From the NCBI GenBank assembly GCA_947259365.1, contig CAMYMC010000001.1:62001-126000 (forward strand): a DNA stretch of 64,000 nucleotides, given 5' to 3'. This document shows, in pieces, positions 37,485 through 40,416 of this stretch. Both the position numbers and the translations under genes were made by a program. The stretch's first letter is position 1. The number at the start of each line of letters is the position of its first letter. The stretch is from an uncultured Acidimicrobiaceae bacterium. Lineage in GTDB: Bacteria; Actinomycetota; Acidimicrobiia; Spongiisociales; UBA5794. The notes under the pieces were generated by a model, which made no database searches, was not told the origin of the DNA, and saw only the letters and a program-made list of their open reading frames with translations.

Positions 37485-38753
37485 GTGGGTACCGAGCCGG
37501 CGCCGGCGCCCCGCGACGATAGGGAGCGAGCCGACCGGCTCGATGCGGCCGACCCCCTCGCTCTGCACCGGCGGGAGTTCGCCGCCACCGATGAGGGCCT
37601 CGTCTACCTCGACGGCAACTCGCTGGGCCGGATGCCGGCGGCGGCCGCGTCACAGGTACGGGCCGCCCTCGAGGAGGAGTGGGCCCGTGGCCTCGTTGCC
37701 TCCTGGGAACGTTGGGTCATGCTGCCGCGTCGTGTCGGGGACGCCATCGGCCAGCTCGTCGGGGCGCGTCCCGGGGAGGTCCTCGTCACCGACCAGACGT
37801 CGGTGAACCTCTTCAAGCTGGCAACGGCGGCCGTGGGGGTTGGGCGCCCCGACATCGTGACCGACGACGCCAACTTCCCCTCGGACCGGTACGTGCTCGG
37901 TAGCGTCGCCGCCGCGGCCGGAGGCGAGCTGCGGGTCATCGAGACCGATCCCGTGGACGGCGTGTCCGCCGACGACGTCACCGCGGCGCTCGACACCGGT
38001 GTCGGGCTCGTCAGCCACTCCCACGTGGCGTTCCGCTCCGGTGCGCTCGCCGACATGGGCACGATCACCGCAGCCGCCGCGGAAGCGGGGGCGATGACGC
38101 TGTGGGACGTCTCGCACTCCGTGGGCGTCGTCCCCATCGAGCTGCGCCGCAGCGGCGCCGACCTCGCCGTCGGCTGCACCTACAAATACCTCAACGGCGG
38201 GCCCGGGGCGCCGGCGTTCGTCTACGTCCGCGACGACCTCCAGGGGCGCCTCGATCAGCCGATCCGCGGCTGGTGGAGCCACGATGACATGTTCGCGTTC
38301 GCCTCCGACTATGCGCCGGCGCCCGGCATCGATCGCTTCGCCACCGGCACTCCCCCGATCCTGTCCCTGGTGGCCGCACAGGCGGGCATCGCGATGACGG
38401 CGCGGGCCGGGCTCGATGCGATCCGGGCCAAGAGCGTGTCGCTGACGTCGCTGCTGATCGAGCTGGCCGACAGGGATCTCGCCCCGCTCGGTTTCACCGT
38501 CGCCACCCCGCGCGACGGGGAGCGGAGGGGCAGCCATGTCGCCCTCCGCCATCGAGACGCCTACCGGCTCACACGTGCCTTGCGCGACCGGGACGTCGTC
38601 ATCGACTTCCGGGCGCCCGACACCCTGCGGCTCGGCGTCGCCCCCCTGTACACAACGCACCGCGAGGTGGCGGAAGCCGTCGCCGTGATCCGTGACATCG
38701 TGGTGACGGGCTCCCACGAGGCGTATCCTCACCACCGGGCGGGCGTGACGTGA
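37485..38753 (+). CDS. kynU: Kynureninase
   Basis: PLP enzyme that cleaves kynurenine to anthranilate and alanine. The 422-residue protein has YLDGNSLGRMP at the N-terminus, the PLP-stacking region TDQTSVNLFKLA and WDVSHSVGVVPIEL. The Schiff-base Lys lies in GCTYKYLNGGPGAPAF, and GWWSHDDMFAF and TGTPPILSL follow, all typical. The start is a GTG five bases after the metK stop; metK and kynU are probably one transcript. No other tryptophan-degradation gene is present in the window. Confidence 0.93.
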   Translation: MGTEPAPAPRDDRERADRLDAADPLALHRREFAATDEGLVYLDGNSLGRMPAAAASQVRAALEEEWARGLVASWERWVMLPRRVGDAIGQLVGARPGEVLVTDQTSVNLFKLATAAVGVGRPDIVTDDANFPSDRYVLGSVAAAAGGELRVIETDPVDGVSADDVTAALDTGVGLVSHSHVAFRSGALADMGTITAAAAEAGAMTLWDVSHSVGVVPIELRRSGADLAVGCTYKYLNGGPGAPAFVYVRDDLQGRLDQPIRGWWSHDDMFAFASDYAPAPGIDRFATGTPPILSLVAAQAGIAMTARAGLDAIRAKSVSLTSLLIELADRDLAPLGFTVATPRDGERRGSHVALRHRDAYRLTRALRDRDVVIDFRAPDTLRLGVAPLYTTHREVAEAVAVIRDIVVTGSHEAYPHHRAGVT

Positions 38754-38799: not shown

Positions 38800-39459
38800 G
38801 TGAACGAGATCGACCGGGACGTGAGAGCGGAGATCTACCGCTTGCTCGTCGCCGGCGGGCCGGGACCCAGCGCCCACGAGATCGCGCCCGGCGTCGGCCT
38901 CGACGTCCCGGAAGTGGAACGAGCCCTCGCCCGACTGGCGGAGGAGCGCCGCATCGCGCTGGTCCCCGGACAGTGGCAGGTTGCGATGGCGCACCCGTTC
39001 TCCGGCGTGCCCAGCGACCATCTCGTCCGGATCGGCGATCGCACGTGGTGGGCCAATTGTGGCTGGGACGGCTTCGCCGTGCTCGCGCTCCTCGGCGACG
39101 GGGACGTCGAGGCCCGGTCCCCGCTCGGCAGCGGCGTCGACACCTGGCGGGTCCGCGACGGAGTCGTCGCTCCCGGCGGTCTCGTCCACTTCGTGGTGCC
39201 GGTCCGTGAGTTCTGGGACGACATCGGGTTCACCTGAAGCACCATCCTCTGCTTCCGGTCGGAAGCCGAGCTCGAGACGTGGCTGGAGCGCCGGGGCCAC
39301 GCCCGAGGAGCCACGATCCCGGTGCAGACCGCGTACGACCTGGGACGAAGCTGGTACGCGGGACGGCTCGATCGCGACTGGAGCCCATCGACGCTCGCCG
39401 AGGCCGAGGCCGTCTTCAGGCAGCAGGGCCTCGAAGGAGACTTCTGGACGTTTCGCTGA
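38800..39459 (+). CDS. MerB-like protein with in-frame TGA, candidate selenoprotein
   Basis: A 219-codon frame related to alkylmercury lyase (MerB). A winged-helix-like N-terminus (residues 1-60) precedes WWANCGWDGFAV, where Cys87-x-x-Asp90 matches MerB Cys96-x-x-Asp99. At codon 146 (39235-39237), after FWDDIGFT, stands TGA; MerB has its second catalytic Cys (Cys159) at the matching spacing (59 residues from Cys87; 63 in MerB). The same frame continues for 73 codons with normal codon use: STILCFRSEAELETWL, then an AYDLGRSWYAGRLD block and a GLEGDFW end. I infer selenocysteine at 146. If TGA stops translation, a 145-residue protein without the C-terminal half results. Alternatives are a nonsense mutation or a sequencing error. 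GTG start with GAGG eight bases upstream. Confidence 0.72.
39247..39270 (+). promoter_or_regulatory. Candidate bacterial SECIS element
   Basis: A perfect 6-bp stem GCTTCC (39251-39256) / GGAAGC (39261-39266) carries the apical loop GGTC. It extends below a single U-C mismatch by CTC/GAG. The loop starts 19 bases after the TGA, inside the 16-37 base range I recall for bacterial SECIS models, and its first bases are G, as those models require. The hairpin lies wholly in coding sequence. Confidence 0.65.
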
Positions 39460-39507: not shown

Positions 39508-40416
39508 TCAGATGCGCTCGATCGGGGTGATCGCAGACCGGGGGCCGTACTTGGGTGCGCCGATGCCGGCGTTCTTGAGGAGAAGCAGCACCCTCCTCCG
39601 CTGTCCCTGGTACGGCGTCAGCAGCTCGAGCATTCGAGCGTCGTCGCCCCGCGGCTCGCCGGCGAGGGCCCACGCCACCATGTTGGGGATGTGGTAGTCG
39701 CCGACGGGGACGGCGTCGGCGTCGCCCCGTGCGATCCCCATGATCGCCGCCGCGGTCCACGGCCCGATGCCGCGGATCGCCAGCAGCCGATCCCACGCCG
39801 CCTTCTTCGGCATCGAGACGATCTCGTCGATTCTCTTCGCCCGGCGGGCCGCCTCGACGAGCTTCTCCGCCCTGGCGCGCTCCACACCGAACCGGTGGAA
39901 GTCCTCATACGCCATGGCGGCGAGTCGATCCGGCGCCGGAGGAAGGCGGAACCCACCCGGCCCCGGCGCCGGCTCCCCGAGCACCTCGACGAGGCGCCGG
40001 TACCCGGTTCGCGCCTGACGGGAGGTGACCCGCTGGCCGAGGATCGCCGCGACGGCGACCTCGAAGGGCTGCAGCGTCCGACCCAGCCGAAGCCCGGGGC
40101 TGCGCCGGTGGAGATCGCGCACGACGCCCGGTCCGGGTTGGAACGCTTCGGGGTCATCGTCGAGGCCGAGGAGGCCGGGGACCGTCTCCAGCAGCCATCC
40201 GCCGCCACGTCCCCACGCGGTCGCGGTGATCTCGGGGCCGGTGCGCTCGAGTCGGATGGTGCCCGGACCGTCGGGCGTGCGGCTGGTGCGCCACGCCCCG
40301 GCCGCAGTGACACGGCCGCGTCCCGCCGATTTCATGTCGAGCGCCCGCAGCGTGGCGGCGAGCGCGTACCGGGCCGGAAGGCTGATGCGGCGCTGCTGTG
40401 CCGTTGCCGGGACCAC
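39508..40416 (-). CDS. DNA-3-methyladenine glycosylase, AlkA-like
   Basis: Base-excision repair glycosylase of the HhH-GPD superfamily, 302 residues. The helix-hairpin-helix LLAIRGIGPWTAAAIMG is followed by the catalytic Asp in VPVGDYHIPN. An N-terminal AlkA-like domain and the interface LQPFEVAVAAILGQRVTSRQA precede it. It removes alkylated bases. There is no C-terminal iron-sulfur Cys cluster, which separates it from MutY and Nth. It converges on the MerB-like gene (48 bases apart) and is divergent from the septum-formation-like gene. Confidence 0.85.
   Translation of the reverse strand: MVPATAQQRRISLPARYALAATLRALDMKSAGRGRVTAAGAWRTSRTPDGPGTIRLERTGPEITATAWGRGGGWLLETVPGLLGLDDDPEAFQPGPGVVRDLHRRSPGLRLGRTLQPFEVAVAAILGQRVTSRQARTGYRRLVEVLGEPAPGPGGFRLPPAPDRLAAMAYEDFHRFGVERARAEKLVEAARRAKRIDEIVSMPKKAAWDRLLAIRGIGPWTAAAIMGIARGDADAVPVGDYHIPNMVAWALAGEPRGDDARMLELLTPYQGQRRRVLLLLKNAGIGAPKYGPRSAITPIERI

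Follow-up and report, generated by a model that had tools for sequence, protein, structure and literature searches.

The closest described relatives of the gene reported here are the organomercurial lyases of the MerB family, for which the strict conservation of Cys96, Asp99 and Cys159 is stressed in the available part of PMC8261052. SaoL, with the motif CU, is the sole MerB-like selenoprotein in the list of a 2026 review (PMC13188914), and PMC9312934 has, under the accession of SaoL, an entry for an alkylmercury lyase MerB-like protein, both as given in the sections of these sources at hand. In Geodermatophilaceae, selenocysteine (Sec) is encoded by UAG in a formate dehydrogenase, a UGSC protein and AhpC, with a tRNA-Sec(CUA), according to the accessible text of PMC5330540. 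MerB is absent from the main text of PMC2398784 and PMC5029168 and, by term search, from that of PMC12013277, each to the extent that the text was available. A literature search combining MerB, alkylmercury lyase or organomercurial lyase with selenocysteine or selenoprotein, covering titles and the openings of abstracts, gave no report of the clade described below among the papers listed, and an earlier mention may exist. A search for SaoL itself gave, among the papers listed, the word in other senses.

The gene, here named Sec-merB, lies in a 64-kb stretch of DNA (the window, taken at its full length) from an uncultured Acidimicrobiaceae bacterium (the host). The features discussed are listed below; L, G and C numbers denote loci, genomes and contigs.

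37500..38753 (start approximate), + strand: kynureninase, the upstream neighbour, with its stop 46 nt before Sec-merB; no known mercury link
38800..39459, + strand: Sec-merB, predicted MerB-family selenoprotein gene of 219 residues with GTG start and TGA terminator
39058..39060, + strand: Cys87 codon, in the column of MerB Cys96; invariant in the family alignment and aligned with C96 of 1s6l
39067..39069, + strand: Asp90 codon, in the column of MerB Asp99 (the proposed proton donor); invariant in two family alignments
39235..39237, + strand: UGA codon, predicted selenocysteine 146, in the column of MerB Cys159; TGA in 79 and TAG in 1 of the best 80 of 416 relatives
39251..39266 (loop 39257-39260), + strand: apical hairpin of the predicted bacterial SECIS (bSECIS), GCUUCC-GGUC-GGAAGC, starting 13 nt after the UGA
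39508..40416, - strand: HhH-GPD DNA glycosylase, the downstream neighbour on the opposite strand; no known mercury link

The earlier note on this DNA had described a single frame interrupted only by one internal TGA, with a Cys87-x-x-Asp90 motif ahead of it. Both parts of the description are reproduced: the frame encodes 219 residues with the TGA as codon 146 (39235-39237), and the motif precedes it by 59 residues. The corresponding spacing from Cys96 to Cys159 in MerB is 63, as counted from the printed 1s6l alignment. The read-through product matches the Pfam MerB family PF03243 over 120 residues spanning the UGA (residues 67-186; E 2e-18, 67 bits, cut-off 27). When the product was divided at the TGA, the upstream part gave 2.9e-6 and 27.7 bits, just above the cut-off of 27, and the downstream part 6.1e-5 and 23.4 bits, below it. 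Each half thus matches on its own, which indicates that both are MerB-like and stand in the correct order. Third codon positions are the most changeable on both sides of the TGA in all five pairs compared, and the product shares on average 38% identity with 58 relatives ahead of the codon and 41% beyond it. The Pfam match across the TGA and the purifying pattern beyond it exclude a chance arrangement and agree with the earlier proposal that coding continues past this codon.

Profile alignment with 1s6l and 5c17 places C87 at C96, D90 at D99 and the UGA residue at C159 (1s6l residue numbers counted from the printed alignment). As alignment tools read U as C, the alignment was repeated with Sec masked to X. 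All 29 UGA-bearing proteins aligned in this manner have a UGA residue in the C159 column, including 16 single-TGA rows of the family. The identification of the TGA with the second catalytic cysteine, proposed earlier from spacing, consequently holds also when the masked residue cannot steer the alignment. C87, W89 and D90 are invariant across 59 sequences of the Sec-merB family. An AlphaFold model of the read-through product, computed with an alignment of 59 of 79 family sequences (Sec-merB included; L099 and one duplicate removed beforehand), reached a mean pLDDT of 97.4 and a pTM of 0.92, the last 73 residues included. All ten PDB entries that Foldseek matched to the model at E<=0.001 are MerB structures, with a TM of about 0.6 and identities of 19–21%; a TM of 0.60 means, for the modelled structure, a related but diverged fold. 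The canonical catalytic set Cys96/Asp99/Cys159 is incomplete in Sec-merB in that C and D are present and the third position is a UGA, for which Sec is predicted. No model of NCBIfam release 20.0 accepts the product, which scores 25.5 and 16.5 bits against the canonical MerB models NF009710 and NF033555 (cut-offs 193 and 200). Identity with SaoL (NF040728) was considered and rejected at 12.9 bits against a cut-off of 140.

Relatives were collected by several routes. A scan of 396 genomes of the host's phylum found a relative at E<=1e-8 in 23 genomes, giving 26 matching stretches: 19 with TGA as single stop, one with TGA and TAG, one with TAG only (L042) and five without a stop. In L042 the TAG lies elsewhere and the C-terminal part is lost, and this locus is probably a broken copy. 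Among GTDB species genomes, 416 relatives were found; the best 80, i.e. those most similar to Sec-merB, carry TGA (79) or TAG (1) at the Sec column. By their labels, these 80 belong to Actinomycetota, Chloroflexota, Thermomicrobiota, Gemmatimonadota, Acidobacteriota, Fidelibacterota (Marinimicrobia), Calditrichota, KSB1 and one bin named Gammaproteobacteria, with some of the labels doubtful: L043, labelled Acidobacteria, equals L166, which comes from a genome of the host's order. The pairs L043/L166 and L044/L164 are separated by zero branch length and represent the same organism reached by two routes. A scan of 345 genomes of the class yielded 29 matches above 190 bits; 27 of these are genes with a single TGA, and two (L168, L170) have Cys instead. 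In addition, six weaker single-TGA stretches were obtained from the class, four of which were analysed (L189, L191-L193), with the second copy in G632 and that in G669 left out; the stop-free class stretches read were L168, L170, L171 and L194-L199. One class stretch, in G572, contains a single TAG.

Cysteine occupies the Sec column in L030, L031, L168, L170, L200 and L201, and tyrosine in one remote relative, L171. With this one exception, the column holds a Sec codon or Cys; Cys there is what the earlier note had named as support for Sec, and the unrelated residues that it had named as a refutation did not appear. On a quick tree L030 and L031 fall inside the Sec family (support 81), and L168 and L170 at its unresolved base, a placement that fits Sec/Cys exchange in either direction, as far as the sequences can tell. 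In L168, L170, L200 and L201 the Asp99 column is likewise Cys (C-x-x-C); two of these genes reside on proteobacterial plasmids, and one is annotated merB. A plasmid search returned two Cys relatives, from Sphingomonas and Paraburkholderia, both with C-x-x-C instead of C-x-x-D. Among viral contigs, none of the 17 pattern matches is a relative.

The machinery for Sec insertion, whose absence the earlier note had named as a refutation, was found in the host: tRNA-Sec, selA, selB and selD all score above curated cut-offs, and selA adjoins selB. The tRNA-Sec reaches 72.9 bits and is labelled tRNA-SeC tca by ARAGORN. It is present as two copies of equal score on different contigs (G000:C37:5-95 and C41:77748-77838), the first beginning at position 5 of its contig; the two may be one gene assembled twice. 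The host selA lacks internal stops, and the only internal stop of selD (L016, G000:C37:25583-26506) is an in-frame TGA, at what we take to be the usual Sec site of SelD. Judged by its sequence, host SelD is probably a selenoprotein itself. In 20 further genomes, an RF01852 match over the cut-off was found in 17; the three without (G013, with the Cys homologue L030, G399 and G404) all have selB over the cut-off. Three weak over-cut-off RF01852 hits in the 20-genome set (49.7–54.6 bits) are tRNA-Ser by ARAGORN. Across the class, tRNA-Sec accompanies the TGA gene in 24 of 27 genomes, versus 194 of 318 others (Fisher p 0.002); as these hits were taken by score, without regard to the anticodon, the weakest may include tRNA-Ser cases. 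The three TGA-gene genomes without a tRNA-Sec match are G607 and G620, which have selB, and G718 (68% complete), which does not.

The single TAG at the Sec column belongs to Geodermatophilus saharensis DSM 45423 (L099:6442-6444). The tRNA-Sec of this organism (L136) carries the anticodon CTA, scores 65.4 bits against RF01852 and is labelled tRNA-Pyl by ARAGORN. Conversely, the best tRNA-Sec of 15 TGA-bearing genomes has the anticodon TCA, as do those of the host and of the Cys-form genome G028. The pairing of a TAG gene with a CTA tRNA-Sec, versus TGA genes with TCA, indicates that codon and anticodon changed together.

The hairpin downstream of the UGA was analysed in 99 unique sequences, a set from which L030 and L031 (Cys), L036 (out of register after the UGA) and identical sequences had been dropped. 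The GGUC loop is present in 91 sequences and other loops in eight. In 500 synonymous recodings that drew on the family's own codon usage, GGUC occurs in 21.3 sequences on average and in 36 at most, and the mean stem measures 5.88 bp in the real sequences compared with 1.65 bp in the recodings. The stem covariation score is 0.280 versus 0.148 after shuffling (none of 500 shuffles as high). Both partners vary in five of the seven stem pairs, compared with a mean of 3.5 after shuffling (4 of 500 shuffles reach five), and stem cells are paired in 90.6% versus at most 63.3% for slid partners. Codon choice at the loop is skewed accordingly: Ser is TCG in 77 of 77 cases (background 317/960) and CGG is used for Arg in 79 of 88 (background 407/1646), with a Fisher value of about 1e-35, where the p-values take no account of relatedness. 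When 39235-39285 is folded as a single sequence, the hairpin is present with a stability no better than shuffles (z -0.42), and the case for a SECIS therefore rests on conservation.

A covariance model built from the 99 sequences has its sole match in the window at 39235-39270 (up to E 1). It also locates the C159-column UGA in all nine loci to which it was applied from the other families described below (L180, L181, L183, L185-L189, L191). Neither the 13 loci of relatives that lack a Sec codon nor the selD locus gave a match; the lack of matches in Cys genes is partly due to protein divergence, as the model includes coding sequence. Applied to the whole host genome, the model returned two full matches, namely Sec-merB and its paralogue, and two weak partial ones (on C30 and C1), which were discarded because a quick look revealed no convincing gene there. 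A comparison of the window with Rfam at gathering thresholds yielded no hits.

The class scan further revealed nine matching stretches with two UGAs (L180-L188), located in all nine at the columns of C96 and C159; with Sec masked to X, the first UGA again falls in the C96 column in nine of nine proteins. The host itself has such a gene (G000:C43:55846-56514, - strand; L180:1992-3551, - strand), in which the double-UGA MerB-like domain is fused to an AAA domain, and the same fusion occurs in L183. In L181 (841-2130, + strand) the fusion partner of the double-UGA domain is an adenylate/guanylate cyclase domain of class III; L182 and L184 resemble L181 when judged by eye. The Asp99 column holds Glu in six of the double-UGA proteins (L180-L184, L188) and Asp in three (L185-L187). 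Four further loci (L189, L191-L193) combine Cys at C96 with UGA at C159. Predicted hairpins likewise follow the first UGAs of the double-UGA genes.

Neither of the two genes adjoining Sec-merB is a mer gene or a Sao gene. The cut-off of the merA model TIGR02053 is exceeded in two of 21 genomes, including G028 with its Cys form, and the best match in the host reaches 312.7 against a cut-off of 454. Together with the identity of the neighbours, this result shows that Sec-merB is not part of a mer operon. A different setting recurs in Chloroflexota: at 23 of 23 loci an rpsB-like gene, a tsf-like gene, Sec-merB and a pyrH-like gene follow in this order on one strand (e.g. L119, L070, L066), where the order was counted with any one open reading frame per cluster and the tsf-like frame of L065 lies 2.2 kb away. 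A stricter check of the order was passed by 9 of the 23 loci, because several loci had more than one tsf-like frame or overlapping frames. The neighbour names in Chloroflexota rest on one Pfam-scanned member per cluster, and pyrH on an amino-acid-kinase match plus position. Such surroundings are odd for a metal-resistance gene. At the other 57 loci, no mer family is found among the 25 commonest Pfam or NCBIfam families and no neighbour family recurs more than three times; this tally covers 119 of 208 selected proteins and would overlook a mer gene with one or two occurrences.

Fold, residue columns, Sec coding, SECIS constraint and Sec machinery are computed results; from them we infer expression, substrate and reaction of the product as follows. 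SelB with Sec-tRNA-Sec(UCA) would decode the UGA at 39235-39237, directed by the bacterial SECIS hairpin 13 nt downstream, and Sec would thereby be placed where MerB has its catalytic Cys159. The Cys87 thiolate and the Sec146 selenolate would then hold the metal atom of the substrate, an organometal and most likely an organomercury compound, Asp90 would protonate the carbon, and Hg(II) would stay bound until passed to cellular thiols. MerB chemistry with a selenolate ligand is proposed because the three catalytic positions are retained. The advantage of selenium would presumably lie in tighter binding and a more reactive nucleophile. The product may also have the strong mercury affinity suggested in the earlier note, and mercury as its substrate. 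Cleavage of organomercury or other organometals as the main role of the product is, on this evidence, slightly favoured.

The assignment of the TGA to Sec, likewise made in the earlier note, draws on the conservation of the Sec column, the presence of tRNA-Sec, selA, selB and selD, the SECIS constraint and the TAG/CTA pairing; insertion of Sec at 39235-39237 is almost certain on these data, and the gene can with high probability be described as encoding a MerB-family selenoprotein, if its chemistry is kept broad. Were the TGA a plain stop in a decaying merB, the probably broken relative L042 would provide a parallel; yet the same codon stands in the same column in 79 of the best 80 of 416 relatives, which makes a sequencing error at 39235-39237 untenable, and both the purifying pattern beyond the TGA and the SECIS constraint speak against decay. 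We regard pseudogene or error as negligible. Insertion of cysteine at the UGA through SelB and an unusual tRNA-Cys(UCA) would restore MerB, and recoding of this kind is named in the title of a 2018 article in RNA Biol (known to us through its citation in the available part of PMC8124441). However, the tRNA with anticodon UCA that was identified in the host is of the canonical tRNA-Sec type (72.9 bits; tRNA-SeC tca), selA is free of internal stops and selD has only the UGA at its likely Sec site, and cysteine insertion is very improbable. A general reassignment of UGA in the host is contradicted by its use as terminator of both Sec-merB (39457-39459) and the upstream kynureninase (38751-38753), and its probability is vanishingly small.

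A more serious competitor accepts Sec and the MerB fold and gives the protein another task, as a sensor of metals or electrophiles or as a housekeeping redox or thiol enzyme. The absence of an adjoining mer gene, the position between tsf-like and pyrH-like genes in the 23 Chloroflexota loci and the merA count of two in 21 genomes are in line with such a task, as are the related MerB domains that are fused to AAA domains (L180, L183) or, in L181, to a class III cyclase, and the Glu in the Asp99 column of the second family (L180-L184, L188). Conversely, C87, W89 and D90 are invariant in 59 family sequences, as a lyase needs, and the product of Sec-merB stands alone with 219 residues and no output domain; stand-alone merB genes may, moreover, act on natural methylmercury. 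A non-lyase role is accordingly a real prospect, if somewhat short of even. Selenium binds mercury far more strongly than sulphur, and a natural Se-MerB would therefore test whether selenium improves or poisons C–Hg cleavage.

The wider picture suggested by the sequences is that of a large, overlooked Sec-dependent branch of the MerB superfamily, spread over the eight phyla named above (Actinomycetota to KSB1), encoded with UGA or (in Geodermatophilus) UAG, including double-Sec members, some of which would have turned into input domains through which class III nucleotide cyclases and AAA ATPases sense metals. Taken as a whole, this picture is evenly poised. The sequences show the Sec codons, the two Sec columns and the fusions, and a selenium-based metal-sensing role of the fused double-Sec domains would be an extension of these data. 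The branch would have been overlooked because its genes look truncated, the Sec codon reading as a stop. Surveys that demand an intact Cys159, the conservation stressed in the available part of PMC8261052, or a full-length annotated protein would presumably miss Sec-merB genes, so that methylmercury degraders may be undercounted in Chloroflexota, Gemmatimonadota, Acidobacteriota and Actinomycetota. The limits of Sec coding, moreover, become testable with double-Sec active sites and UAG-encoded Sec.

In comparison with known systems, the Sec-merB product shares with the organomercurial lyase MerB (PF03243; 1s6l, 3f0o, 5c17) the fold, the C96-x-x-D99 motif and the second catalytic position. It differs in the predicted replacement of Cys159 by Sec, in an identity of 19–21% to the solved MerB structures and in scores far below the NCBI cut-offs and, unlike canonical MerB, the gene has no adjoining mer gene. 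L099 resembles the UAG-Sec selenoproteins of Geodermatophilaceae in combining tRNA-Sec(CUA) with a UAG Sec codon; a MerB-family UAG gene is not among the proteins named in the accessible text of PMC5330540, to which L099 thus adds one. SaoL (NF040728) is, according to the parts of its descriptions at hand, a MerB-like protein with Sec, as predicted for the Sec-merB product, with a CU motif in contrast to TU, i.e. without the Cys before Sec. SaoL is over its cut-off in none of the 396 genomes of the host's phylum. Sec-containing MerB-like proteins are hence already known in the form of SaoL, from which the Sec-merB product, as predicted here, is distinct by score.
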